DNA from: a virus
Strand: one strand, 5' to 3'
DNA length: 64,000 nucleotides
Virus record (IMG/VR): IMGVR_UViG_3300049215_000802
Coordinates: 1 to 64,000 of that record
Both the position numbers and the translations under genes were made by a program. Positions within the stretch are counted from its first letter, which is position 1. Each line of letters begins with the position of its first letter. Positions 2,753 to 59,099 of this stretch are shown here, piece after piece. Below the pieces are notes generated by a model. That model was given only the letters and a program-made list of their open reading frames with translations. It did no database searches and had not been told where the DNA came from.

Positions 2753-4507
2753 CTACCGCCGGGTCCGCGTCGCCGCACGGTCCCCGCTCGTCGACTCGTA
2801 CGCCCCGATCGTCGGGTTCACCCAGAACGGCCGGCCGCGAAAGTCCACGTCCCAGGCGTGGGCGTACGTCCCCGCCCGGTGCAGGCTCGAAAGCGGCGAC
2901 ACCCGATAATCACCGCCCGAAAAGTTATAGAACTTCGGGTCGGCGCTCATCGCCGTCGCTTCCTGCGCGCCCTGCCACGCGCCCAGCGTGTTACTCGCCA
3001 CGCCCTGGTAGCTCCACGCGTTGGCCGCGACCCCGTTCGCCGAGTAGTAATCGTTACTCGCGAAGCTCGCCGTGCTGGTATCGTTCGCCACCAACACACA
3101 ACTGGTCGGCGCGTTCGCCGAGGAGTACACGACGTTGTTCTTGTAGACAATGCCCGACGCCGCCACCACCGTGCCCTGCGGGTCGTTGTTCACCCGAAAC
3201 GCCGGCGACTGGTAGCTCGCCGCGTCGAGGAGCACCAGGTTATTGCAGAAGATCGTCCCGACGCTCGCCTTCCCATACAGGCAGCCGTTCACGCCGGTCG
3301 AGTCCTGGATGTAATTGATGACGTTGCCGCACCAGACGTTCGGCGTTCCCTTGTACGTCCCGCCGTAGTTCGTCCCGCCGTGCTTGTCCACCGCGCCAAG
3401 CACGCCGTTCTGGAGGGTGTTCCCCCAGATCAGCGCGCCCGAAATCCAGCTCACGAGCAGGCCGTGGTTGCCACCAACGATCGTGTTCTGGCTCACCACG
3501 ACGCCGCCCGCGCCGTTGTACCCCGTCGGACCCACCGGCCCCGCGCTCGCCGGACCATCCTGGCCGACCAGAATCCCGTGTCCGCCAAACCCGTTCGCGC
3601 CAAGCGCGTCGATCGGCAGCGTGACGGTGTTCTTCTGCACCAGCACACTCGACGAGGTTAGGCCGGTCGCACTCAAACCGACGGCGATCCCGTCGATCAA
3701 GTTCGAGCTGGTCTGGTTCGGCGCCGTCACCGTGATCGTGTTCGACTGAATCGTGTGATTCAGCCCCAGGTTGAACATCATCGCCTGCTGGGTGCCCGTC
3801 GCCTGGTCGCACACGAGCGCGCAGGTAACGCCGATCACCGACACCGTGCCGCCCGCCGCGCCCGGGTTCGCCTGAAAAATCCCGTACGCGTTCGTGCTCA
3901 CGCCGCTCGCAAACGTCCCGGTCACCTTGCCGTTGGCGATCTTGTACGCGTCGCTGCTGGACCCAGGATCCAGCCGAATCGCCGCGCTCGTCGCGTTCGT
4001 GCAGCCCGACACGTCGATCGACCAATTCGCGTCGTTCATCACAAAATTCGCGTTCTTAAACAACCGCATCCCGTACTGGGTGAAGTTCTTCGCCTGCACC
4101 CCGATGATGGTCAATGACGACAACTGGTTCGAGCTGTCCGTCGTCAGGCAGCCACTATTGGCGTTCTGCCCGTCCAACACGATCGTCGAACCCGCCGCCC
4201 CCAGCACCGACCCCTGCGACGCCTGCGAAAAGTGGATCACCCGCGAGTCCGAGCCCGTCGCGTCCTGAATCGTCGCCGTCAACCCCGCGTCGGCCTTCAC
4301 CGTCAGCTGCTTGCCCGGGTTCAGGTACGCCGTCTCCACGAACGTGCAGCCGTTCAGAATCAGCGTGTCGCCACCACTCGCCGCGCTCATCGCGTGCGCG
4401 ATCGTCAGCCACGGCGTGCTCTTACTCACCGCCTGGCCCGTGGTGTTCGAGTCGCTCCCAACCGCGTACCCATTCGTCGCCGCGTTGCTCACGTAATACG
4501 TCGCCAC
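2753..4507 (-). CDS. Parallel beta-helix surface or tail-spike-like protein
   Basis: This 584-residue protein begins with the segment ATYYVSNAATNGYAV and continues as a Ser/Thr/Asn-rich beta-helix with repeated NTITV and GILV type rungs. The GTG at 4507 was chosen because it follows GGAGGGG at seven bases and matches the N-terminus of a close paralogue at 24644-26722. The two share long identical stretches, including the start and NPGAAG and VVVSQNT segments. Such folds serve as phage spikes or depolymerases. No catalytic site is identifiable by eye. Unlike the paralogue, it lacks the extra C-terminal beta domain. Confidence 0.75.
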   Translation of the reverse strand: MATYYVSNAATNGYAVGSDSNTTGQAVSKSTPWLTIAHAMSAASGGDTLILNGCTFVETAYLNPGKQLTVKADAGLTATIQDATGSDSRVIHFSQASQGSVLGAAGSTIVLDGQNANSGCLTTDSSNQLSSLTIIGVQAKNFTQYGMRLFKNANFVMNDANWSIDVSGCTNATSAAIRLDPGSSSDAYKIANGKVTGTFASGVSTNAYGIFQANPGAAGGTVSVIGVTCALVCDQATGTQQAMMFNLGLNHTIQSNTITVTAPNQTSSNLIDGIAVGLSATGLTSSSVLVQKNTVTLPIDALGANGFGGHGILVGQDGPASAGPVGPTGYNGAGGVVVSQNTIVGGNHGLLVSWISGALIWGNTLQNGVLGAVDKHGGTNYGGTYKGTPNVWCGNVINYIQDSTGVNGCLYGKASVGTIFCNNLVLLDAASYQSPAFRVNNDPQGTVVAASGIVYKNNVVYSSANAPTSCVLVANDTSTASFASNDYYSANGVAANAWSYQGVASNTLGAWQGAQEATAMSADPKFYNFSGGDYRVSPLSSLHRAGTYAHAWDVDFRGRPFWVNPTIGAYESTSGDRAATRTRR

Positions 4508-4573
4508 CCATGCCCCTCCATTGCCCCACGCCCCAGGTGCCAGGTCTCTTCCCCGCCCCCCGCCCGCCGCCAC

Positions 4574-7866: not shown

Positions 7867-8049
7867 GTGCGACAGCTTTGGGGAAACGTCTTGCCTTTTG
7901 CTCTGATGAGCTTTGGCCTGATGTCCTATGGCGCCCTCTGGATCATTCCAATGCCACAAAATGTCTTGTTAGGGCTGGCCGTGGGGATGGTGCCCATCGC
8001 CGCCGTTTTGGCCGGTGTTACGATCGCAGTGATTCGCTGGAATCTTTAA
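7867..8049 (+). CDS. Small two-helix membrane protein (hypothetical)
   Basis: This 60-residue protein starts at GTG and has two hydrophobic segments, around residues 8-27 and 33-57. It ends four bases inside the convergent glycosyltransferase gene. No family is recognised. The upstream AAGTAGG may act as a weak ribosome-binding site. Confidence 0.4.
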   Translation: MRQLWGNVLPFALMSFGLMSYGALWIIPMPQNVLLGLAVGMVPIAAVLAGVTIAVIRWNL

Positions 8050-9197
8050 GCGTGTTCGCAAGCGGTCCGATAGACCTCGACGGTTCGATTCGCGACGACG
8101 TCGGCTGAGTACGTCGCAATAGCCTTCTCTCGCCCCGCCCACCCGAGCCGTCGCCGCAACTCCTCCGAATGCAGCAGCTCGTGCCAGCGATCGGCGAGCA
8201 CCTCCTCGTCGCCATCATCTACCAGGTAGCCGTTCTCGCCGTCAGTCACCATCTCGGGAATGCCGGCGACATTGGTTGCGACCACTGGCCGGCCCATCGC
8301 CATGGCCTGAGCAAGAACGGTCGGCAAGTTTTCGAGGTGGCTGAACAGTGTGACCACCGCGGCCCGCTGCATCAATGTGATGAGCCCCGGCCAGGTCTGG
8401 TGACCGAGTAGTTGGACCGATTTCGTGAGTTGCAAGTCCGTGATTGCCTGGCGTACCGTAGCTTCATACTCCGGCGTCTTCGACGGACCAGCCAACAAGA
8501 GCGGCACGTTCACGCCACGAGCACGGAGGCGCGCGTATGCACGGATCATCCCGACGACATTCTTCCGTGGCTCAAGCCATCCGGCGTACAAGATCGAACC
8601 CGCAGGGTAATCGTCGACGTAAGCATCAAAGAATTCCGGGGCGATCGGATTTGGGATGCACGCCAGCCGACCGCGGACACGATCGCGATAGTGCCCCTGA
8701 TCGAAGCTCGAGATCGAGATGATCGCGTTGGCGTCACGCAGGGCGTGATCGACGAGCCGGTCAACCATCTTGAGCCGCAATCGATCGGCAACGCTTGAGC
8801 TGAGCCGACGACGGGCTTCAACCTCGAAAAGGCCGTGAATCGTAACGACCGATGGCAAACCAGCGTGCAACGCTCGCTCGCTGTCGAGGCCAAGTCCGTG
8901 GGCGTGGATCAGGTCGGCACTACTTTGACGTGCGATCGCGCGGAGCTTCTTGCCGTCGATGAGCGCCCCGATGATTAATTGGAACTTTTGTATTCCGACA
9001 ATGCGAATAATCGTAAGTTTGGACGATACCTTCTCGACGCCAGCCGCTGCCGCAGTCGGCACGAAGACAACGTACGTGACGTGCTCGACATCAGGATGAG
9101 CGGCGATCGCCGGCGTCAGCGTACCCGCGACCGCCTCGACACCGCCGCGAACCTTTCCTGCTTCACGCGGGTATCGTCCCGTCGCCAGGATCCTCAC
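8046..9197 (-). CDS. Glycosyltransferase family 4 (GT-B)
   Basis: This 383-residue protein has the two-domain GT-B layout. The N-terminal acceptor domain includes GGVEAVAGTL and LIHAHGLGLD. The C-terminal donor domain includes ILYAGWLEPRKNV, VPLLLAGPSKTPEYE and LFSHLENLPTVLAQAMAMG. It would transfer a sugar from a nucleotide donor to a cell-surface glycan or glycolipid. The usual E-x7-E motif has Glu at the first position but Gln at the second. It lies 13 bases downstream of the methyltransferase in one operon. I treat it as host or cargo DNA, not phage structure. Confidence 0.85.
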   Translation of the reverse strand: MRILATGRYPREAGKVRGGVEAVAGTLTPAIAAHPDVEHVTYVVFVPTAAAAGVEKVSSKLTIIRIVGIQKFQLIIGALIDGKKLRAIARQSSADLIHAHGLGLDSERALHAGLPSVVTIHGLFEVEARRRLSSSVADRLRLKMVDRLVDHALRDANAIISISSFDQGHYRDRVRGRLACIPNPIAPEFFDAYVDDYPAGSILYAGWLEPRKNVVGMIRAYARLRARGVNVPLLLAGPSKTPEYEATVRQAITDLQLTKSVQLLGHQTWPGLITLMQRAAVVTLFSHLENLPTVLAQAMAMGRPVVATNVAGIPEMVTDGENGYLVDDGDEEVLADRWHELLHSEELRRRLGWAGREKAIATYSADVVANRTVEVYRTACEHA

Positions 9198-9210
9198 GTT
9201 GTCGGCTAGC

Positions 9211-10065
9211 CTACTTGCGCATGACGACGAAAACGCCGTTTATGCCGAGTAGTTTTCCGAAACGTCGACGCCAGGTTCGGGACGGCAGCGTCCTAAGTGC
9301 GGATTCGACGATTACCTTCACGCCAACCGGTACGGATACGCTCAGGCTCGACAGGTCCTGATGACGTGCGACTGGTCCGAGAAATGGGGCATCTGACCAG
9401 ATCCGTCGAAAGCCGATCCGCCGGCCGAACTGCGCCAAACTGCGGTAGGTCCACTCCTGCAGGTGAAACCCAGTTGCGACGTCATCATAATATTGGCTGA
9501 CGTCCCACGGCCCGGTGATCCGATTCGGCGTGTCGACGGCGAAGATGCCACCAGGTCGAAGAACGCGGAAGACTTCGCGAAGGTGCTGGGCGGCATCATC
9601 GGGATGGAAATGTTCGAAGACCTGATGGTGATAGACAAAATCGACCGATCCGGACGCAAACGGAATAGCGATGCCTTCGGTAGCCATCAGCTCAAGATTA
9701 CCTAGCGTGCGACCACCAACCGCGTAGGAGAGCTTCTGAACCGAAATGTCCGTGGCGACGACTTGAGTGACAGGGTGTCGTGCAGCCAACTCAGCAGCAA
9801 GCAGGCCGGTTCCGCACCCAATCTCGACGACGACGCCTCGGTCCGGCATCAGGTCATTGAAGAGACTGAGACCGGTTCGGACGTGTTGCGCGAGCTCGCG
9901 AGCGTCCTGGTGTAATCCGGGGTGCCACGTGATTTCAGTATAGAGCTGGTCGTACGCTTCGCGCGTGACCTGACTCCGTTGGTCTGTTCTGCTTTCGAGG
10001 ATACGCCGGGCGAGACGTTTTTCGAGCTCGTAATGGTAACGACGTCGTGCTTCATCAGTTTGCAC
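9211..10065 (-). CDS. Class I SAM-dependent methyltransferase
   Basis: The 284-residue protein carries motif I (VVEIGCGTGLLAAEL), an acidic residue at the end of beta-2 (VVATDIS), and later segments (FVYHHQVFEHFHPDD, then REVFRVLRPGGIFAVDTPN) typical of small-molecule methyltransferases in glycan and lipid pathways. The start is GTG at 10065 after GGAG. It is followed closely by a family 4 glycosyltransferase, so surface polysaccharide modification is likely. The substrate is unknown. Confidence 0.85.
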   Translation of the reverse strand: MQTDEARRRYHYELEKRLARRILESRTDQRSQVTREAYDQLYTEITWHPGLHQDARELAQHVRTGLSLFNDLMPDRGVVVEIGCGTGLLAAELAARHPVTQVVATDISVQKLSYAVGGRTLGNLELMATEGIAIPFASGSVDFVYHHQVFEHFHPDDAAQHLREVFRVLRPGGIFAVDTPNRITGPWDVSQYYDDVATGFHLQEWTYRSLAQFGRRIGFRRIWSDAPFLGPVARHQDLSSLSVSVPVGVKVIVESALRTLPSRTWRRRFGKLLGINGVFVVMRK

Positions 10066-10221: not shown

Positions 10222-10258
10222 CAAAAGAGGCTGCTAACCTGTCATTGATTAGCAGCCT
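10222..10258 (-). terminator. Intrinsic terminator of the phage late operon
   Basis: A perfect 10-bp stem, AGGCTGCTAA/TTAGCAGCCT, with an 11-base loop (10228-10258) is followed on the minus strand by CTCTTTTG. It lies 15 bases after the amidase stop codon, exactly where leftward late transcription should end. The stem contains TGCTAA and TTAGCA, the half-site words of the repressor operators at 62234-62325. Confidence 0.8.
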
Positions 10259-10273: not shown

Positions 10274-10825
10274 CTACAACGACGGGGGCTGGAGCTTTCC
10301 CCGGGCCACGAGCCCCGGACAATCGGTCCCCCCGTTGGGTAGCAGGCCGTGGCCGGTCAACTGCAACGTCCGGTTGAGAACCGTCTGCACCGCGTCGTAC
10401 ACCTTCATGGCCGCTGACCACTGCTGGTCGGTTGGGTCTTGCCCGGAGAAGCAGACCGAGATCGTCCAGTCGTTGTAGACGCCCTCCTGGTTCGCATCCT
10501 CGGTCGGCGATCCCACACCATTCGACCAGCACTCGTCTTCGAGATCGTTCCCGATCTCAATCGTCGCGTCTCCTTCGATGAAAATCGCATACGCAATTCG
10601 GGGGAAGGGCCAGGTTGCGGTCGGCCCGGTCTGGTATGCGGCCACGGCCTGCGCAGTCGGTCGCCCCTCGCCGTCACCGGTATGATGGATGACGACCATC
10701 TGGACGTCAGCGAGCTTCCGCCGCGGATACGGCCCGGCCCCGGCTCGGGTCGGCAATTTCTCCCGCAGATCGACCGCGCCGAGCAGCTTGATCAGCGCGT
10801 CGGTGGGAGAAACGCCGTTCAGGAT
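10274..10825 (-). CDS. N-acetylmuramoyl-L-alanine amidase domain, probably the -1 frameshift extension of the upstream glycosidase
   Basis: About 183 codons encode an Amidase_2-type domain: VVIHHTGDGEG (zinc His), EIGNDLEDECWSNG, and GHGLLPNGGTDCPG (zinc His and Cys). The usual WH of the middle motif is WS here. There is no ATG, GTG or TTG between the upstream stop and the first catalytic motif. The only near start is CTG at 10822, overlapping the glycosidase TGA. The frame lies -1 relative to the glycosidase frame, entered at the slippery heptamer 10825-10831. I infer a 543-residue fused endolysin. Independent CTG initiation or a homopolymer sequencing error are the alternatives. Confidence 0.75.
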   Translation of the reverse strand: MLNGVSPTDALIKLLGAVDLREKLPTRAGAGPYPRRKLADVQMVVIHHTGDGEGRPTAQAVAAYQTGPTATWPFPRIAYAIFIEGDATIEIGNDLEDECWSNGVGSPTEDANQEGVYNDWTISVCFSGQDPTDQQWSAAMKVYDAVQTVLNRTLQLTGHGLLPNGGTDCPGLVARGKLQPPSL

Positions 10826-11904
10826 AAAGGGGGCAGCCCGACATTGACCTCCGTCGTCAGGTTGCCGTCCTTGTCGATGCCGGCGTACAGCGAGCGGCCA
10901 CTGGAGAACATCTGGTAGATCCACTGGCCATTCTCGGTTCGATGCTCCGGCTCGAGCGGCGCACCAAGAGGGCTGTTCTGATCCTGGAGCTCCTTCCATT
11001 TGTCGGACAGTCCGTGCCCTGGCACGTAATCAGCCCCAAAGCGCTTCCAGAGATCGGAGTAGTACCGCGTCAGTTCGTCTTGTGGCACGTTGCCTCCATT
11101 CGTTGGATGAGATGGTGGGTTGACTGCTGGGCCGCCCACCAGTTGAGCGGCCAGGTCAGAGGCGAGATCGTCTAACGTGAACGTCTGCCACGTTTCGGTC
11201 GGTCCCGCCGTGAAGAACGTCGCGTACTCGTGGGAATGTAGCTGCTTGGCGTAGGCAACACACTCGGCACGGTAAGCGTCGGCGGCGATTCCATCAGCGC
11301 GCCAGCCGTTGTGACCAAGCCAAGTACCTCCTGCCCCATCCCTAACTTGAGCGCGGCCGCACTCAGTAACGAATACTGGCTTTCGCTGATCAAGATTTTC
11401 GTCATAGAACTGTCTCCACCGGAGCGCGTTCCACTGGGTGAAGCCGGCACTATTCCAGTAGGCGTGGACGGCGATCGCGTCGAGGCCGGCCCATCCAGCT
11501 TTCCGCCACGCTTGCCAATCTTCGAGCTCGTAGTCGCCGGTTGCCCAGGACGGTCCCGCGACCAGGACGCCGGCGTCGTGGAGAATCGGCACGATCTTTT
11601 GGGCGAAGCTGACGTAGCACGTCGTATCGCTCGGCGGAACCTCGTTGAGCAACTCGACGTAGAGCCGCCCCGGAGCGCGGAAGCCCTTGAGCCGACCAAG
11701 CAGCAAGGACGCGAACGTCTCCGCGCCGTCGTCCGTGTGGAGATAGGTGCCCCAGTCGTCGGCTACAGCGCGGAAGATCAGCAGCGAACCTGCATTAGCC
11801 TCGGCCAGTAGTGAAGGATCGTCCAGAACCTTTACCACATCGGCCTTTTGGACCCAGGCCTTCGCCGCGGCGGTGGGGAGGATGACGTGTGGACCGGCGT
11901 TCAT
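10819..11904 (-). CDS. Endolysin glycosidase part: GH clan A-like domain plus LGFP-like repeat
   Basis: The protein has 361 residues. Residues about 5-240 resemble a TIM-barrel glycoside hydrolase, with the acid/base pair Asn-Glu in LYVELLNEVPP (residues 87-88) and a nucleophile Glu in PVFVTECGRA (181). After a Pro/Asn linker, residues about 300-350 read as an LGFP-like wall-binding repeat (SPLGAPLEPEHRT, then WIYQMFSSGRSLY). The ATG at 11904 overlaps the preceding stop as ATGA. Together with the -1 amidase extension it would give a glycosidase, wall-binding repeat and amidase lysin. Confidence 0.75.
   Translation of the reverse strand: MNAGPHVILPTAAAKAWVQKADVVKVLDDPSLLAEANAGSLLIFRAVADDWGTYLHTDDGAETFASLLLGRLKGFRAPGRLYVELLNEVPPSDTTCYVSFAQKIVPILHDAGVLVAGPSWATGDYELEDWQAWRKAGWAGLDAIAVHAYWNSAGFTQWNALRWRQFYDENLDQRKPVFVTECGRAQVRDGAGGTWLGHNGWRADGIAADAYRAECVAYAKQLHSHEYATFFTAGPTETWQTFTLDDLASDLAAQLVGGPAVNPPSHPTNGGNVPQDELTRYYSDLWKRFGADYVPGHGLSDKWKELQDQNSPLGAPLEPEHRTENGQWIYQMFSSGRSLYAGIDKDGNLTTEVNVGLPPLS
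10825..10831 (-). promoter_or_regulatory. Putative -1 frameshift site CCCTTTA in the endolysin
   Basis: On the minus strand the zero frame reads CCC CCT TTA TCC TGA, so the heptamer C-CCT-TTA has the X-XXY-YYZ phase. A tandem slip to CCC TTT continues directly into the amidase frame. The stop lies three bases after the heptamer. GGAGG occurs about 16 bases upstream. Confidence 0.6.
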
Positions 11905-20196: not shown

Positions 20197-20559
20197 CTAG
20201 CCGAACACCTTGGCGAAGGCAGCATCCATCGCCGCTTGCTTGGGGTCTCGGTTCTTGCGCTCATCGCGACCTCCAAACACGGCGTTCAATTGCTCAATCT
20301 TCGCTAGTAAATCGGTGGGCTTGGCCGGCTCTTTCTTGTGGAACGGCATAAAGTCGATCGGTTGGAACGGCTCGGTGTCCGGTCCGCGGTTGACGTTGGC
20401 GATGACGCTCGCGAGCATCGCCGCCCGCCAGTCCTGCCGCTCGATCATGCCTTCGCGTCGTTGCAGAAGCGCGTCGAACTCTTTGAGCGTGAGCCGCCAG
20501 AAGGTATCATCGCTCAGGCCGAGATCGTGAACGCCGATCGACCACAGGTCTAGCCAGCT
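20197..20559 (-). CDS. Tail assembly chaperone, T-like frameshift extension
   Basis: Read in the -1 frame from the heptamer at 20559-20565, this segment is open for 120 codons. It encodes a typical chaperone extension: LDLWSIGVHDLGLSDDTFWR, then LTLKEFDALLQRR. An ATG at 20448 would start an 83-residue product but would drop this conserved part. I therefore read it as the T half of a G-T fusion of about 228 residues made by frameshifting, as in lambda gpG-gpT. Confidence 0.85.
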   Translation of the reverse strand, partial: SWLDLWSIGVHDLGLSDDTFWRLTLKEFDALLQRREGMIERQDWRAAMLASVIANVNRGPDTEPFQPIDFMPFHKKEPAKPTDLLAKIEQLNAVFGGRDERKNRDPKQAAMDAAFAKVFG

Positions 20560-20882
20560 AAAGGGGTCTCAGGTTCGGCCTGCTCGCCCTTCGCTTCGGG
20601 CATCGCCGCGCTGAACGCGCGCCTGAAGGCGTCCGACACATCGGCCAGGTTGTGCAAGTCGATCATGTCGCCGACCTGTTCCGGCGTGAGCGTCGGATCC
20701 TCGTGGATCAGCGCTGCCCAGACGTAGACCCTCAGATCCTTGAGACCAATCTGGGTGGCCTTCGTGTTGAGCATCGATCGCCCAGTCCGCTCCTCACACT
20801 CGATCATCGCGTTGAGGGTGAAGCGCAGGTGCCGCGTCTTGTCCAGTTCGATCGGCACGAGAGGGACGGCTGACTTTGGCAT
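20550..20882 (-). CDS. Tail assembly chaperone, G-like
   Basis: This 110-residue protein has the usual chaperone composition. A beta start (VPIELDKTRHLRFTLNAMIE) is followed by helical segments (KDLRVYVWAALIHEDPTLTP) and an acidic Pro-rich end leading into the slippery site. It lies between the tail tube and tape measure genes, where the chaperone that coats the tape measure during assembly is expected. Confidence 0.85.
   Translation of the reverse strand: MPKSAVPLVPIELDKTRHLRFTLNAMIECEERTGRSMLNTKATQIGLKDLRVYVWAALIHEDPTLTPEQVGDMIDLHNLADVSDAFRRAFSAAMPEAKGEQAEPETPLAG
20559..20565 (-). promoter_or_regulatory. -1 frameshift site CCCTTTA in tail assembly chaperone
   Basis: The zero frame reads ACC CCT TTA GCT GGC TAG, giving C-CCT-TTA in X-XXY-YYZ phase nine bases before the stop completes. 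A slip to CCC TTT enters the open T-like frame. A small GACC-TGTG-GTC hairpin lies downstream. This is the classic position for frameshifting in siphovirus tail chaperones. Confidence 0.85.
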
Positions 20883-24643: not shown

Positions 24644-26722
24644 TCACTTCCCCGTGCCGCGCAAATCAAGCGCAGTCAGCTGGAGCGCGATATTGTCCAC
24701 GCTTACCAACAGCGTTCCGCCTGGACTCGCCCAGCCCGAAACGTGGAGTGGCCCCACCGCGACGGTTGTATTTGCCGGAATCGACTGGATGAGGTTGTTC
24801 GTTCGCCCTTGCGAGTCCGGATATGCGATGACGGTGAGCATATGGGCGTTGTTGGCGTCGGTGTTGCGCGCTAGAAGAAGTTGCCGCCCGAGCATCGAGA
24901 TCTGGACGCTCAGATTCGGATCGCCTGCTTGCCAAGTCAACGTCGCCCCGGTCGTGCCGTAGGGCGCAGTCGCCTTCACTGGCGTCATCTTGATCGGTAG
25001 GATCTCGTAGGGGCCGATCGTCGGCGTCACGCTAAACGGATGGCCGTCGTAGCCGAGCGAACTCGCGCTGGCGAACGTTCCGGCCAGGTACAGCGGCGAG
25101 CCGACCTGCTGGTGATAGTCGCCACCGGAGAAGTTGGCGAAGGACGGCGTCACGCCGAGCGCCCCGGTTTCCTTCGCCGCCTGCCACGCGCCCAGGTTCG
25201 CGTAGTTGGTTGCCTGGTAAACCCACGCGTTGTTCGCGAAGCCGGGAACGGAGTAGTAGTCGTTGGTGAAGAACGTCGCGGTTGACCCGTCGTTGCCGAC
25301 CGACACGGCCGCTGTCGCCGCGCTCGCTCCCGTGACGTAGAGCAGGTTATTCGCGTACACGATGCCGCTGGCGGCGACGACCGTTCCTGACGGATCGTTT
25401 GCCGCCTTGAGGAAGATTGACCCGTTGCTCGTCGCGTCGAGCAGAACCAGATTGTTCGCGAAGATCGTGCCGACTGAGGCCTTCGCGTACAAGCAACTGG
25501 ATCCGGCCAGGTTCGCGCCGTTGCTCACGAAGTTGACGATGTTGCCACACCACAGGTTCGGTATCCCGTTGTAGGTGCCGCCATAGTTGGTCCCGCAGTG
25601 CTTGTCGACCAATCCCAAGATCGTCCCGGTGACCGTGTTCCCCCACGACAGGGCACCGCTCAACCACGCGATCAAGATGCCGTGGTTGCCGCCGGTCACG
25701 CTGTTCTGGCTGACCACGACGCCAGTCGCGCCGTTATATCCTGTCGGCCCAACCGGCCCCGCACTCGCCTGGGTGTCCGCGCCGACGATAATGCCGTGCC
25801 CGCCAAACGCGGTCGAGGCGGTGGGAAGCGTGACGGTGTTTTTGTTGACGACCACACTCGTACTGGTCAGGCCGGTTGCCGAGACACCAACCGCGATGCC
25901 GTCGATCAGATTGCTCGTCGTCGCGGCTGTCTGCGCTACCGTGACGGCGTTGTTCTTGATCGCCAGCTGCGCGCCGATGTTGAACATCATCCCTTGCTGC
26001 GTGCCGCTCGTCGCAGCCGTGGAGACGTTGACGTTGACGTTCTCGACGTCAACCGTCACACCGGCCGCGCCCGGGTTCGCCTGGAAGATGCCATAGGCGT
26101 TCGTGCTGACGCTCGATGCGAACGTGCCGGTGATCGAGCCGTTCTTGATCGTGTAGACGTCAGTCGCGCTGCCCGGATCGAGGCGGATCGCCGCGCTGGT
26201 TGCATTCGAGCACGCCCCAACCGTCACGAGCCAGTTCGCATCGATCATCACGAACGCCGCGCACTTGAATACTCGGATGCCATACTGGGTGAAGTTGATC
26301 GCGTGGACGCCGATCAGCGTCAGTGACGATAGTTGGTTCGACGAATCGGTCGTGAGGCACCCGCTGTTTTGGCTGCGGCCGTCCAAGACGATCGTCGAGC
26401 CAGGGTCGCCCAGGATCGAGCCCTGCGCGGCCTGCGCGAAGTGGATGACCCGCGAATCGCTGTTCGTCGCGTCCTGGATGGTCGCGGTTAGCCCCGCGTC
26501 GGCCTTGATCGTCAGTTGCTTGCCGACGTTGACGAACGCCGTCTCGGAGTACGTACCGGCGTTGAGGATGATCGTGTCGCCGTTCACCACGGCGCTGTTC
26601 CCGACAGCGCCGGCGAGCGTCAGCCATGGCGTGCTCTTGCTCTGTGCCTGCACCGACGTGTTGGAGTTGTTGCCAACGGCGTAGCCGTTCGTCGCTGCGT
26701 TCGAGACGTAGTACGTCGTCAT
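24644..26722 (-). CDS. Beta-helix surface protein fused to the small beta domain
   Basis: The protein has 692 residues. Residues 1 to about 575 are a parallel beta-helix, strongly similar to the protein at 2753-4507 in the remnant prophage, including the TTYYVSNAATNGYAVG start. Residues about 580-690 are the repeated beta domain, member 3 (MTPVKATAPYGTTGATLTWQ, then GPLHVSGWASPGG). It probably forms a trimeric spike on the neck or tail, and the extra domain may anchor or decorate it. Confidence 0.8.
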   Translation of the reverse strand: MTTYYVSNAATNGYAVGNNSNTSVQAQSKSTPWLTLAGAVGNSAVVNGDTIILNAGTYSETAFVNVGKQLTIKADAGLTATIQDATNSDSRVIHFAQAAQGSILGDPGSTIVLDGRSQNSGCLTTDSSNQLSSLTLIGVHAINFTQYGIRVFKCAAFVMIDANWLVTVGACSNATSAAIRLDPGSATDVYTIKNGSITGTFASSVSTNAYGIFQANPGAAGVTVDVENVNVNVSTAATSGTQQGMMFNIGAQLAIKNNAVTVAQTAATTSNLIDGIAVGVSATGLTSTSVVVNKNTVTLPTASTAFGGHGIIVGADTQASAGPVGPTGYNGATGVVVSQNSVTGGNHGILIAWLSGALSWGNTVTGTILGLVDKHCGTNYGGTYNGIPNLWCGNIVNFVSNGANLAGSSCLYAKASVGTIFANNLVLLDATSNGSIFLKAANDPSGTVVAASGIVYANNLLYVTGASAATAAVSVGNDGSTATFFTNDYYSVPGFANNAWVYQATNYANLGAWQAAKETGALGVTPSFANFSGGDYHQQVGSPLYLAGTFASASSLGYDGHPFSVTPTIGPYEILPIKMTPVKATAPYGTTGATLTWQAGDPNLSVQISMLGRQLLLARNTDANNAHMLTVIAYPDSQGRTNNLIQSIPANTTVAVGPLHVSGWASPGGTLLVSVDNIALQLTALDLRGTGK

Positions 26723-52101: not shown

Positions 52102-54312
52102 CTAGGCGGTAGCGACGTCGATGCCCATGAATGAGAACAGGTCGCCACCTTTGGCTAACTGCTCTGCTTGACGTAGATTCTTGACCGCAACCCGCCAGTA
52201 CTCGGGTTTCAGCTCGCAACCCCAGAAGCGCCGTCCACTGAGAATCGACTGATAGCCTTCGCTACCAATGCCACCAAACGGCGATAAGACCAGTTCCCCG
52301 CGGTTGCTCCACAGCCGCACGCAGCGTTCAATCGTGCCGAGCTGCAACGGACAGATGTGCCGCTCGTCCTTTTCCGACCGCGCCTCGACCACGTTCAGCG
52401 TGTCGGATTCCTTGATCCCGTACCAGATCGGACGCGCGTACTCGATCCATTGGTCGTTCGTCAGGTCAGGTTGAATGGGCGTCGGGTTGTCGCCGGGCTT
52501 GCGAAACAGGATGATGTAGTCGGCGAAGGCCGGCCGTGACCAACTAGAATCCTTCCGAAACTGCGCGAACAGCAACCCTTTCGAGTGGGTCCGAATCGCC
52601 TGCGCCTGCGGGTCTTTGTCGATGCACACCTCGCCGTGGTAGACAAAGCCCTGGCTCTCGAAGTGGCGGATCAGGTCGCCGCGGAAGTCCTTCATTCCGA
52701 TCACGCCGTCACTCGCCAGATGCGAAGCGAGCTGCTGGCAGTGGCAGCAGATGTTGCGCCCTGGCTTCATCACGCGCAGCAACTCGCGGGTGATGAAGCC
52801 AAAGTGCTCGAAGAACTCGGCATAGTCGCGGCCGTTGCCCAGGTCACGTTCACTCGCCGAATAGGTGTACAGTTGCGCGAACGGCGGTGAGAAGATCGAC
52901 AGGTCCACGCTCGAGTCGGCTAGCTCCTTGAGTCGTTCCGCCGAATCCCCCAAGTGCATGGTCCAGTCGTGACCGCTGGCTGTCTTTTCCTCGTAGACAA
53001 AAGAATCCACGCGCCCGCTCCTGATTTCGGCCCGCTCAAACTCCGCGACGTTCGCAATCAACTCCCGCGCGATGGCATCCGCGTCGGCTTCCTTCCGTAC
53101 GATATTCTGGTAGATGGCTTCCTCGGCATCCGACAACACGACGTAGGCAGTCACTGGCTGCGTCTGCCCAAACCGCCAGCTTCGCCGAATCGCTTGGTAG
53201 TACTGCTCGTAACTGTCCGACAAGCCCACGAAGGCCATGCGGCTGGCGCACTGCAAGTTCAGTCCGTGTCCAATGATCGACGGCTTGCTAATCAGCACCC
53301 GCGCGCCGCCATCGAGAAACGTCGTGATGCGTTCCTCTTTCTGCTGGATCGTCTGCCCGCCTTCGATAATCAGCGCCTCTTCAATCAGCCGATGGAGCGC
53401 GTGCCCTTCCTCGTTCAGCCCACACCAGATGATCCACTGGTGCCCCTTGTCGCGGTTCACCATCTGCGCGGTTCGGAACACTCGATCGTTGAGTGTTGAG
53501 CGCCGTACCTTCGCGCGGTCGGTGACGCCCTTTAACCCTGTCGAGAACAGTTGGCCTTCTGGCACGTAATCACTCGCGACGATCACCGGTGCGATGGTCA
53601 GCGCTGGTAGGTTGTACCCATCGTCGGCGTATCCCAAATCGGATGGCTTCCGCAGCGCCATTGCCCACGACGCGAGCCATTGGTAGAACGGCTCCCGCGC
53701 GTGGCCCTTCAGCCGCCAGCCCTCGTCGTCGTGGACGAAGTAGGTCGCGAGCATTTCCTGACGGGTCATCACGCCCAGGAATTCGGCGTGGTTGGCGATC
53801 TCAGTATGATCGTTGGGCGCCGGCGTCGCCGTGCAGCACAGTCGGTACGGCGTGTCTTTGAACGCCTCAATCAGTGCTTTTCGCGTTTTACCTTCGAAGT
53901 TCTTGAGAATCGAACTTTCGTCCAGTACGACCGCGCCAAACGTCGACGGGTCCATCTTGTCGAGCATCTCGTAGTTCGTCACCACGATCCGCCCGCGCAC
54001 GTCCCGCTGGTGGCGTACGTACTGGACGTTCACGCCCAGCTTCGCCGCTTCGCGCACGGTCTGCTGTGCCACCGCTAGCGGCGCGAGTATCAGCGTCGGT
54101 ACTCCGATCAGCCGTGCCCACTCGACTTGCTGAAACGTCTTACCGAGGCCGCAATCCTCGAACAGTGCCGCGCGCCCCTTGCGAAGCGCCCACCTAACCA
54201 TGTCGCGCTGGAAGGGAAAGAGCAGCGGGTTGATTCGGTCAACGCTGACTTCGATGCCACTGGCTTGCACTGTAACTTGCTTCGACGCCAGGAAATCCGT
54301 GTAGTCGCTCAC
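52102..54312 (-). CDS. SF2 helicase fused to beta-class DNA methyltransferase
   Basis: The protein has 736 residues. Residues 1 to about 440 are an SNF2-like helicase: FEDCGLGKTFQQVEWA, VVLDESSILKNFEG, CCTATPAPNDHTEIANHAEF, then QAIRRSWRFGQTQPVTAYVV. Residues about 450-730 are an amino-methyltransferase with motif IV SPPF (LSIFSPPFAQLYTYS) before motif I (LSPFGGIGSEGYQ), the beta-class order. GTG overlaps the preceding stop as GTGA. The fusion suggests translocation-coupled DNA methylation, protecting phage DNA from host restriction. Confidence 0.88.
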   Translation of the reverse strand: MSDYTDFLASKQVTVQASGIEVSVDRINPLLFPFQRDMVRWALRKGRAALFEDCGLGKTFQQVEWARLIGVPTLILAPLAVAQQTVREAAKLGVNVQYVRHQRDVRGRIVVTNYEMLDKMDPSTFGAVVLDESSILKNFEGKTRKALIEAFKDTPYRLCCTATPAPNDHTEIANHAEFLGVMTRQEMLATYFVHDDEGWRLKGHAREPFYQWLASWAMALRKPSDLGYADDGYNLPALTIAPVIVASDYVPEGQLFSTGLKGVTDRAKVRRSTLNDRVFRTAQMVNRDKGHQWIIWCGLNEEGHALHRLIEEALIIEGGQTIQQKEERITTFLDGGARVLISKPSIIGHGLNLQCASRMAFVGLSDSYEQYYQAIRRSWRFGQTQPVTAYVVLSDAEEAIYQNIVRKEADADAIARELIANVAEFERAEIRSGRVDSFVYEEKTASGHDWTMHLGDSAERLKELADSSVDLSIFSPPFAQLYTYSASERDLGNGRDYAEFFEHFGFITRELLRVMKPGRNICCHCQQLASHLASDGVIGMKDFRGDLIRHFESQGFVYHGEVCIDKDPQAQAIRTHSKGLLFAQFRKDSSWSRPAFADYIILFRKPGDNPTPIQPDLTNDQWIEYARPIWYGIKESDTLNVVEARSEKDERHICPLQLGTIERCVRLWSNRGELVLSPFGGIGSEGYQSILSGRRFWGCELKPEYWRVAVKNLRQAEQLAKGGDLFSFMGIDVATA

Positions 54313-55955: not shown

Positions 55956-58900
55956 CTAGCCCGCGCCGAAGAAAGCCCGCACGACGTCGAGTGACCGCGT
56001 CTGTTTGGCCGGCGGAAGGCTCCGAATAATCCCGGTCCCGTAGCCCTTCGTCGTCAGTCGGCCGTCGAGCAACGCGACCACGCCGCGATCGCTCTTGGTA
56101 CGAATGAGCCGGCCGAAGCCTTGCTTGAACTGGATCGCACAGAGCGGAAGCGCCAGCCCGCTGAACCACGCCCACTTGTCGTTCTTCTGGCGATTCAGCA
56201 GATCGCAGCGCGCCTGATAGACCGGCTCGTCGGGTGTGGGGAATGGCAGCTTGTCGATGATGACGAGCGAGAGCGCTTCCCCCTGGACGTCGACGCCGGC
56301 CCAGAATGTCCGAAGCCCGAACAGAACTGCGTGGCCGTCCTCGCGGAATCGGCGAATTGTTTCCTGCGTTCCGAACTCGCCCTGGCGCAAGACGGTCCAG
56401 CGCAGCCGTGAATCGAGCCGGTTGTAGACCTCGTCGAGCGCCTTTCGGCTCGTGAACAGGCAGAACGCTCGGCCGTCCGAAGCTAGGAGCAACGCCTCGA
56501 TCTCGTTGGCGAGCCGATCGAAATACTCGATCGAGCCATCCTCGCGAAACTTCGACGGATCGAATGCGCTGCCATTGGCCGGCAGGTAGAGGAGCGCGTT
56601 GCGGCCAAAGTCGAACGGGGAATCAACGATGATCTCGCGGCCGTTTTCACAGCCGGTTCGACCGCGGAAATAGCTGAAGTTCCCGTGCGTCGAGAGCGTC
56701 GCCGACGTCGCGACGGTCGGCCACCGTGTCCATAACGCGCGATCGAGATCCTCCGCGACCGAGATCGGCGCGCACCTGAGCGCCGTCGTCGTGTTGCCCT
56801 TGCGTCCGACTGACTTCTCGACAAACGTCACGTGGGTATCGGCATCGCCCTGAAGCACCTGGCCGAACACATCGGCCCAGCCGCGGATCCGGCTCGCGTA
56901 GTTTTCGAGCTGCTTTGCGTTGCGGGTCGGCTCAAGGTCTTTTAGATTCGGATCAAAGCTAATTCCGGTTAGGGGTTCATCGGTCGCCGCCCGCTTCGCC
57001 TGGCCGGCCAGCGCAAGAAGCGCCAACCGCACCTTTTCGGCGCGCGACGTGAGCCGTTCAGTCGCGGTGACAGAAAACGTCTGCCGTTGATCCGGTGCGA
57101 ACTGCGCGAAGAACTCTTCGCTGGCCTCGCGTGCCGTGGCCATCTGCTCATCGGTGAAGCCAGCCTTGATCGGAAGCTTTCCGCGCAGCAACGACGGCAC
57201 GGTCCAGTTCGTCGCCTCGATCGTGAACGCTTTGGTCGCGACGTCTTCGAGCGAGTGCGCTTCGTCGACGACAATCAGGTCACGATCAGGAAGAACGGCA
57301 ACGCCGTCACTCGTCTTATCGCGCAAGGCAAGGTCGAGGCTGAGAAGAGTGTGGTTGACGACGATGACGTCGGCATCTTTCGCCGCGGCGCGCGCCTTCA
57401 TCGCGAAGCAGGCATCGTACAGCGGGCACTCTTTGCCGAGGCACTCATCGGTCGTCGAGGTCACGTTACTCCGCAGCTCGGGCGTGATCGTGAACGTCAG
57501 TTCGGCGAGATCGCCAACGAGCGTCTCCTCGGCCCATTTGTCGATTTGGGAAAACTCCCACGATTGGCCGAGCGCGAGCTGCGCGCCGCGTTCCTCGTCG
57601 AGTTTGAACAGGCAGAGATAGTTGCTCAGCCCCTTGAGGACAGCAAACTGGAACTGGACTGGCAAAACGTTTTTGAGAAAGGGCAGGTCCTTGCTGCAGT
57701 TGTGAGACGCCAAGCCCTCGGCAATGTAGGTCCGCGATGACGTTCGAATAGCTCGAACTGTTTTAGTCCCAACGAAGGTTTTTCGGATGACGCGGTTACC
57801 ATTCGCACTGTCACCGCTAACGGCCGGGATAGTTCCAACAAGATCTGGGTTGAACTTCTCCAACAACCGAGCCGGCCTAACTTGCCCCAGAAACCGCAGC
57901 ATGTCCTTGCGATTGCCGAAGTAAAGGGCGAACATATCCTTGTGGCCCTCATCAGATCGCGTATGAAGCTGCGCCCGATAATCGAAGCCAAGTGCGGTTA
58001 GATAGCCACGAACGCGGTCAAGCATTGCGTTGGGCGACTGCGCGAACGCTAGGTGATTCGAGTGGCCGCCAGCGAGATTAGTCACTTTCTTCTGACTGAG
58101 ATGGCCTTCGCCGTCAAAAGCCGCAGCGAGATAGCCGGCCTCGTAGCTTGTATCTATCTCCCACACGTCGGCAATTCGGATAATCTTTGAACCAAGCCGC
58201 TTACCAGCCGTTGAACAAAGTTGCTCCGTCGTCATCCATTTGATTTCCATGCGGTGCCCGACCAACCAGCGATGCTCGTCTGAACAGGTTACAGTCGTTC
58301 CGTCTTCGAGTTCGATTTCGTAACAGGGGCGCTCGATGTCCTGGACCGATTCAACGACGGAATCGCAAAAATGGCGGCGATTACCGACTCGCTCCTCTTC
58401 AAAGGCAAGAAGGTGCATCCCTTCGGTAATGTCCTTGGCCGGAATGTAACGGAGATCGGCGGTCAGAATCTTTGTCTCAGGCGCAACGCAAAGCTGATCC
58501 TGAAGCGCTTTGCCTTCGGTCGAGACGATCGTTTTCTTCCCGGAGTAGATCGCAGGGATCAGGTAAGCTAGGCTTTTGCCGGTCCCGGTCCCCGCTTCGG
58601 CCAGGACGTTTTCGCCGTGAACCATGCCATCGGCAATCGCCTGCGCCAGCTGGACCTGGGTGGGCCGGCTCTCGTAGCCCGGCATCCGCTCGGCGATGAC
58701 ACCATTCGGCCCGAGGATCGCGGCCATATCGAGACGCGGCACATCATCGGTTTCGTCTTCGACGGACGCGAGGCTGTTGACCGGAACGGCGATCTCGTCG
58801 TCGTCCTCGTCGTCTTCGTCGTCGGGTATTGCGTGTGCCGCGCGCTCGAGCGTCTCCAGATTAAAGCCCAACTCGCCCAACTGACGGTGATACCGACGTA

Positions 58901-59099
58901 GCAGGCGAAGCAGGGCAAATCCCTGATCGCGCGTGACGCGCCCGGTCGCATCGACCTCGCTGAGGATGGCCGCGGCGCGCGGGTAGTCGAACGCGCTGAA
59001 CCCGACGTTGTTGCGATCGATCGGAACGCCGCCGTCGTCACCGCGGTGCAGGAGACTGTCGGCGACGCGAACGAGCGGGTTATCCAGGTGCGTGATCAT
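55956..59099 (-). CDS. DinG/XPD-type helicase interrupted by an intein
   Basis: The precursor has 1047 residues, of which 783 are the helicase. Walker A is NVLAEAGTGTGKSLAYL. Four iron-sulfur-type cysteines appear in CLGKECPLYDAC and nearby. The DEAH box is VVDEAHSLEDV, and the final motifs are LRTFWAGVDVQGEALSLVII and QGFGRLIRTKSDRGVVALLD. The intein lies between motif Ia and the cysteine region. No clear Shine-Dalgarno sequence precedes the ATG. A possible promoter (TTCACA-18-TATAGC) lies just upstream. The helicase unwinds DNA 5'-3', likely in replication or recombination. Confidence 0.88.
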   Translation of the reverse strand: MITHLDNPLVRVADSLLHRGDDGGVPIDRNNVGFSAFDYPRAAAILSEVDATGRVTRDQGFALLRLLRRYHRQLGELGFNLETLERAAHAIPDDEDDEDDDEIAVPVNSLASVEDETDDVPRLDMAAILGPNGVIAERMPGYESRPTQVQLAQAIADGMVHGENVLAEAGTGTGKSLAYLIPAIYSGKKTIVSTEGKALQDQLCVAPETKILTADLRYIPAKDITEGMHLLAFEEERVGNRRHFCDSVVESVQDIERPCYEIELEDGTTVTCSDEHRWLVGHRMEIKWMTTEQLCSTAGKRLGSKIIRIADVWEIDTSYEAGYLAAAFDGEGHLSQKKVTNLAGGHSNHLAFAQSPNAMLDRVRGYLTALGFDYRAQLHTRSDEGHKDMFALYFGNRKDMLRFLGQVRPARLLEKFNPDLVGTIPAVSGDSANGNRVIRKTFVGTKTVRAIRTSSRTYIAEGLASHNCSKDLPFLKNVLPVQFQFAVLKGLSNYLCLFKLDEERGAQLALGQSWEFSQIDKWAEETLVGDLAELTFTITPELRSNVTSTTDECLGKECPLYDACFAMKARAAAKDADVIVVNHTLLSLDLALRDKTSDGVAVLPDRDLIVVDEAHSLEDVATKAFTIEATNWTVPSLLRGKLPIKAGFTDEQMATAREASEEFFAQFAPDQRQTFSVTATERLTSRAEKVRLALLALAGQAKRAATDEPLTGISFDPNLKDLEPTRNAKQLENYASRIRGWADVFGQVLQGDADTHVTFVEKSVGRKGNTTTALRCAPISVAEDLDRALWTRWPTVATSATLSTHGNFSYFRGRTGCENGREIIVDSPFDFGRNALLYLPANGSAFDPSKFREDGSIEYFDRLANEIEALLLASDGRAFCLFTSRKALDEVYNRLDSRLRWTVLRQGEFGTQETIRRFREDGHAVLFGLRTFWAGVDVQGEALSLVIIDKLPFPTPDEPVYQARCDLLNRQKNDKWAWFSGLALPLCAIQFKQGFGRLIRTKSDRGVVALLDGRLTTKGYGTGIIRSLPPAKQTRSLDVVRAFFGAG
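57699..58490 (-). mobile_element. Intein with LAGLIDADG-type endonuclease in DinG
   Basis: Residues 204-467 of the precursor (264 aa) form an intein. It starts CVAPETKILTADLRYIPAKD, has a block B TCSDEH, and ends RTYIAEGLASHN followed by Cys. One clear LAGLIDADG-type motif (AGYLAAAFDGEGHL) and a weaker second region (RVRGYLTALGFDY) are present. Splicing would join ALQDQL to CSKDLPFL in the helicase. All splice-site residues (Cys1, His-Asn, Cys+1) are intact. Confidence 0.9.

Follow-up and report, generated by a model that had tools for sequence, protein, structure and literature searches.

A phage wall hydrolase with an optional amidase, probably added by programmed −1 frameshifting

The DNA analysed here, called the window throughout, comprises bases 1–64,000 of an 82,888-base IMG/VR virus record, a metagenomic contig. 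According to the list of its open reading frames a lysin gene sits on the minus strand downstream of the tail genes, and the 3′ end of the glycosidase reading frame runs GTC GGG CTG CCC CCT TTA TCC TGA. The following features make up the locus.

11904–10819, minus strand: zero-frame glycosidase-like open reading frame of 361 aa, with an ATG start and a UGA stop at 10819–10821
11140–11904, minus strand: clan GH-A-like (beta/alpha)8 catalytic domain, approximately residues 1–255, from alignment, AlphaFold2 and Foldseek
10832–11139, minus strand: linker region without a Pfam match, described as "LGFP-like" in an earlier note on this DNA and not homologous to the linker of the relative L109 (see below)
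10848–10852, minus strand: Shine–Dalgarno (SD)-like GGAGG, 16 nt upstream of the heptamer, anti-SD duplex −10.2 kcal/mol
10831–10825, minus strand: slippery heptamer C CCU UUA in zero-frame X XXY YYZ phase
10274–10824, minus strand: −1 frame extension, open and with coding signal, 183 residues after the slip plus a stop
10751–10817, minus strand: predicted stem-loop starting 7 nt after the heptamer, dG −37.6 kcal/mol, z −2.2
10756–10754, minus strand: in-frame TTG, a rival amidase start, 62 nt past the UGA and inside the predicted stem
10313–10711, minus strand, −1 frame: Amidase_2 (N-acetylmuramoyl-L-alanine amidase) domain, Pfam PF01510, E 3.1e-9
10228–10258, minus strand: 12-bp hairpin followed by UCUUUU, z −3.1, directly after the amidase

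The last of these, with its UCUUUU tail, is a probable terminator as far as can be read from its sequence, and the amidase is therefore probably the last coding region on the transcript; the hairpin was absent from the output of a consensus terminator scan. Glycosyltransferase and methyltransferase genes that resemble cargo genes follow directly behind (8046–10065, minus strand), and no holin was recognised next to the lysin gene. Elsewhere in the window, a DEAD/DinG-like helicase (55956–59099, minus strand; Helicase_C_2, DEAD) is interrupted by a probable intein, whose LAGLIDADG-like segment (residues 319–406, E 4e-4) lies just under the Pfam cut-off, and one open reading frame (52102–54312, minus strand) fuses an SNF2-type helicase and an N6_N4 DNA methylase. 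Two large proteins whose genes lie ∼20 kb apart (24644–26722 and 2753–4573, minus strand) are 65% identical over 576 residues; the pair has no Pfam match at E ≤ 0.01 and possibly represents duplicated virion or adsorption proteins.

The assignment of the first domain rests on structure and conserved residues. Pfam returned weak Cellulase and Glyco_hydro_cc matches with scores under the cut-off, and PDB sequence searches gave nothing useful. In an alignment of seven sequences R45, N87-E88, H147, Y149, E181 and W201 are invariant, and the AlphaFold2 model folds as a TIM barrel, most of residues 1–230 having a pLDDT of ∼80. Foldseek matched it mainly to TIM-barrel glycosidases (E ∼1e-5, with modest TM-scores). 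The marks of clan GH-A, namely a TIM barrel with an Asn-Glu acid/base and a later Glu nucleophile, have their counterparts here in the barrel, N87-E88 and E181. The substrate of this enzyme need not be peptidoglycan, and the phrase "two wall-cutting activities" in the earlier note goes beyond the evidence for the glycosidase. The LGFP-like repeat that the note placed in the linker is a visual resemblance, with no Pfam support at E ≤ 1.

The second catalytic domain lies complete in the −1 frame, as the note had maintained. Its HHT, GH and DCPG motifs are intact, and the −1 frame also matches the endolysin family phrog_1493 (E 1.6e-7); these observations favor the name endolysin, which as worded nevertheless claims more than they can carry. 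Codon scoring trained on this phage places the coding signal in the zero frame up to the heptamer and in the −1 frame from just after it. Read in the −1 frame, the 21 codons between the UGA and the TTG have a score of 0.688, the mean for true genes being 0.506; among open off-frame stretches, 0.24% (−1) and 0% (+1) score as high as 0.688. In addition, a stand-alone Chloroflexota amidase (L111) matches the window amidase with E 3e-19, and its alignment starts at DLREKLPTRAGAGPY, so that conserved residues (the homology begins at DLREKLP) lie upstream of TTG 10756.

An independent internal start that yields a separate, longer amidase is, against this background, very improbable. Suitable codons do exist in the open −1 frame (GTG 10924, ATG 10999, and CUG 10822 over the UGA), but their SDs are weak, the same scoring gives the −1 frame no coding character ahead of the heptamer, and the heptamer would be left without an explanation.

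The heptamer itself, reported earlier as an in-phase C-CCT-TTA ahead of the TGA, does occupy the X XXY YYZ phase at 10831–10825, with the UGA one codon past it. A slip at C CCT TTA joins 360 residues to 183 and gives the 543-residue longer form that had been predicted. As assembled, the slip site reads CCCCCTTTATCCTGA and carries a C5 run; slippage during transcription is not favored, because both this run and the T3 run are short. Across 1,409 genes from related phages and prophages (438,003 codons), two in-frame copies of C CCT TTA were counted (4.6e-6 per codon), and one of the two is the lysin site itself. At gene ends canonical heptamers of any kind are scarce as well: they occur within the last four codons at 6 of 1,696 ends in the phage and prophage sequence surveyed, three of the six being the window lysin, the window tail chaperone and the L109 lysin, all with CCCTTTA. 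A mechanical scan of the window found exactly two canonical −1 junctions, in the lysin and in the tail chaperone, and the latter gene is organized as follows.

20550–20882, minus strand: tail assembly chaperone G-type open reading frame of 110 aa, matching phrog_2115 (E 1e-22) and, weakly, Phage_TAC_11
20559–20565, minus strand: heptamer C CCU UUA, in phase, two codons ahead of the UAG
20197–20565, minus strand: T-type −1 extension of 122 codons, open

The identical in-phase heptamer that the note had located in this gene is thus present, with the −1 frame open beyond it. No strong structure was predicted downstream of the chaperone heptamer, and the chaperone had no relatives among the loci examined.

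At the lysin site, by comparison, CGGCGUUUCUCCC pairs with GGGAGAAAUUGCCG in the predicted stem, and the 70-nt stretch at this stem ranks within the top 0.17% of the strand for stability. The usual spacer between heptamer and structure is 5–9 nt (PMC5009743), and the predicted stems of both the window and L109 start 7 nt after the heptamer, inside this range, with the stem being exceptional in the window only. The upstream GGAGG is, judging by its sequence, a possible 5′ stimulator, although at 16 nt it is probably farther from the heptamer than would be ideal.

L109 is the closest relative of the glycosidase, and it was retrieved with the 543-residue protein as query against 400 Chloroflexota genomes, the heptamer playing no part in the search. 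It is located on contig C324 of genome G172, a prophage-like contig with integrase-like, phage head and tail, and tape measure-like genes in its list of open reading frames, and is 50% identical over residues 1–255. Its glycosidase ends CTC CCT TTA CCG TGA, and the −1 frame past the heptamer encodes Amidase_2 (E 1.6e-17), such that heptamer, phase, distance to the stop, spacer and −1 amidase are all the same as in the window. The surrounding sequence has diverged considerably: the linkers have no convincing alignment, the amidases are very divergent when judged by eye, and beyond a common UGA-R-CGGCG after the heptamer the stem sequences differ. The L109 stem, a GC-rich predicted helix of 9 bp, is not exceptional for its contig. 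Given that C CCT TTA is rare in frame and canonical heptamers of any kind are rare at gene ends, it is very unlikely that the two sites coincide by chance.

This comparison also bears on a sequencing or assembly error, or a recent frameshift mutation, in what would be a single in-frame glycosidase–amidase gene. The window is from a metagenomic contig with a C5 run at the site, and in-frame fusions of the two domains do exist in other Chloroflexota (L113, L114 and L115), from which it follows that a joined glycosidase–amidase is a natural product. However, the independently assembled L109 has the same break, heptamer and stop spacing, and an error in the window would therefore not explain the heptamer match. 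On each side of the heptamer the domain is intact and the coding character extends as far as the heptamer, and the window's list of open reading frames showed no second gene that looked broken. An error or a recent mutation is very improbable.

L109 is the only independent homologue found to carry the heptamer site. No close relatives by sequence were found in IMG/VR, INPHARED or GTDB contigs, and the same queries returned none from 49 terminase-related viral records or 18 related host genomes; profile-based pattern searches likewise returned none, and further Chloroflexota and Actinomycetota genomes held no additional close glycosidase. Among the other Chloroflexota glycosidases considered, L121, L123, L124 and L126 lack an amidase and terminate in frame, and in L122 the two domains are fused in a single frame. 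The tail chaperone-like gene of the L109 phage (L118/L119, G172 C324, 21722–22069) has no canonical heptamer at its end, where a GTG overlaps the stop; CCCTTTA is therefore not a genome-wide habit of that phage.

The main rival to frameshifting is translational coupling, in which a ribosome terminating at the UGA would open the stem and re-initiate at TTG 10756 to make a separate amidase. The statement in the earlier note that no ATG, GTG or TTG precedes the first catalytic motif was mistaken: TTG 10756 and ATG 10699 are both upstream of the first catalytic His (10687). In the amidase frame the window has no ATG, GTG or TTG within 62 nt 3′ of the UGA, and the TTG is the only such codon between the UGA and ATG 10699. 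Because a start there would retain the whole Pfam-matched domain (residues 45–177 of P0002), the argument from the absence of a start is weaker than had been stated. Coupling would also make sense of an SD-like GGGAG (10760–10764) ahead of this TTG and upstream of the catalytic His, both elements being exactly what the predicted stem would hide. Related amidases are stand-alone endolysins in actinophages. In L109, and in a possible third case (L144, below), a GTG overlaps the stop in the 4-nt overlap common between adjacent genes. There is moreover a precedent in the MS2 lysis gene, for which, according to references cited within PMC5009743, frameshifting was proposed first and coupling shown later.

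Several observations nevertheless make coupling improbable as the main route. It leaves the heptamer unexplained in both phages, given its in-frame rate, and the SDs for the GTGs of L109 and of the third case (locus L151) are poor. In the window the SD-to-start spacing would be a mere 3 nt, the start a TTG and the gap 62 nt. Ahead of the TTG lie the conserved DLREK and 21 codons that have coding character in the −1 frame; since, in addition, the predicted stem encloses the TTG, this codon is probably not the main entry to the amidase on sequence grounds. As to where homologues begin their amidase, a point raised in the earlier note, L109 gives a divided answer: a GTG overlaps the glycosidase stop, so that the amidase there could be a separately initiated gene, yet the heptamer and the −1 amidase are retained. 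Coupling and frameshifting could both operate in one phage family.

Taken together, it is very probable from sequence that this phage wall hydrolase acquires an optional amidase through programmed −1 frameshifting, with two proteins made from one late gene of a tailed phage. This reading, which the earlier note had put forward, is well supported because the arrangement is conserved in L109 (as a protein-similarity search revealed), the heptamer is rare, the coding frame switches upstream of the TTG and the predicted stem is strong. Most ribosomes would stop at the UGA and release the 361-residue GH-A-clan-like glycosidase, while some would be held up by the stem-loop 7 nt further on, at a moment when CCU occupies the P site and UUA the A site. 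After re-pairing with CCC UUU, these ribosomes would read on in the −1 frame, append Amidase_2 and yield a two-enzyme protein of 543 residues. If slippage is simultaneous, the A-site residue should mostly be Leu and the junction should read VGLPP(L/F)ILNGVSP; the predicted junction peptide is DGNLTTEVNVGLPP(L/F)ILNGVSPTDALIK, to be set against the zero-frame C-terminus DGNLTTEVNVGLPPLS. The sequence elements, the intact domains, their conservation in L109 and the switch of coding frame are observed, whereas we infer the slip itself, its efficiency, any stimulatory effect of the stem or of the upstream GGAGG, and a function in lysis or in penetrating the wall. The "ratio control" of the two activities that had been suggested goes further than the evidence.

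It might be asked whether the arrangement extends to other phages. A search of IMG/VR with the DNA pattern CCCTTTANNNTGANCGGCG returned 22 loci, and one of them, L144 (L151), has real domains on both sides, joining a polysaccharide lyase (Polysacc_lyase PF14099, E 6e-4, below the Pfam cut-off) to Glyco_hydro_12 (PF01670, E 1.8e-23). A 6-bp hairpin lies 6 nt downstream of its heptamer, similar Thr/Gly/Pro linkers flank the site on both sides, and the stem is not unusually stable for its GC-rich contig. The L151 heptamer is at 3405 (minus strand) of a 138.8-kb phage and adjoins a terminase-like gene. Because the pattern itself selected L144 and a GTG overlaps the stop there, it is counted as suggestive and not as proof. 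SD-like sequences upstream of the L109 and L151 heptamers are weaker or nearer than the GGAGG of the window. In the 400 Chloroflexota genomes the DNA pattern occurred in three places, L109 and two without the frameshift arrangement. Separately, in a Limnoglobus prophage (L104, 12888, plus strand) an A AAA AAA stands four codons before the stop of a 908-aa open reading frame, with a −1 frame of 333 codons, and is possibly another frameshift.

A broader but more doubtful idea is that phages of Chloroflexota, and possibly of other hosts, share a recoding cassette that makes a second catalytic module optional. Such a cassette might tentatively be written as CCCUUUA NNN UGA with a stem 6–7 nt after the heptamer, placed in the linkers of modular wall- or polysaccharide-cutting proteins. 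The modules concerned would then perhaps be an amidase after a glycosidase in two phages and GH12 after a polysaccharide lyase in L144.

Among dsDNA phages, programmed frameshifting has been described in tail chaperones and in capsid and tail proteins that carry optional domains. Our search of the literature, confined to open-licence papers, found no wall-degrading enzyme or lysin made by frameshifting, in agreement with the earlier note, which knew of no well-established case. If the reading is correct, recoding can determine the composition of a lysin or virion hydrolase. Gene callers will then overlook the second catalytic domain or annotate it as a gene of its own, and two-enzyme forms of this kind may be absent from lysin catalogues. 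The site would also be a case open to direct testing, a cassette of 100 nt with a heptamer, a stem and a defined junction peptide.

Several known systems share part of the arrangement. Lysin genes with two products that differ in domain content, as proposed here, include those of Lys170, CD27L and CTP1L (PMC6023083) and Ms6 lysA (PMC3111421), all of which use an internal start in the same frame and not recoding. In Lactobacillus phage Sabazios the split lysin is encoded by two overlapping open reading frames, as here, and its authors considered frameshifting and found no slippery sequence (PMC7260188), unlike the present site. The Chloroflexota proteins L113, L114 and L115 have the same kind of domain order in a single reading frame. 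The same heptamer, CCCUUUA, with a downstream structure was proposed for −1 frameshifting between CP and RdRp in Giardiavirus, a eukaryotic dsRNA virus, although that proposal has been questioned (PMC8230311). The lambda-type tail chaperone G/GT resembles the lysin gene in having X XXY YYZ near the zero-frame stop and a −1 extension that gives, or in the lysin would give, a longer, minor product; here, in contrast, a strong stem is predicted, and what would be added to the glycosidase is a catalytic amidase and not part of a chaperone. A further parallel is provided by the Ig-like domains added by frameshift to capsid or tail proteins in phage T3, Lactobacillus A2 and Listeria phages (PMC5009743), where, as proposed here, an optional C-terminal domain is recoded onto a fraction of a phage protein. 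Those are structural proteins that acquire binding domains, whereas here a hydrolase would gain a second enzyme.
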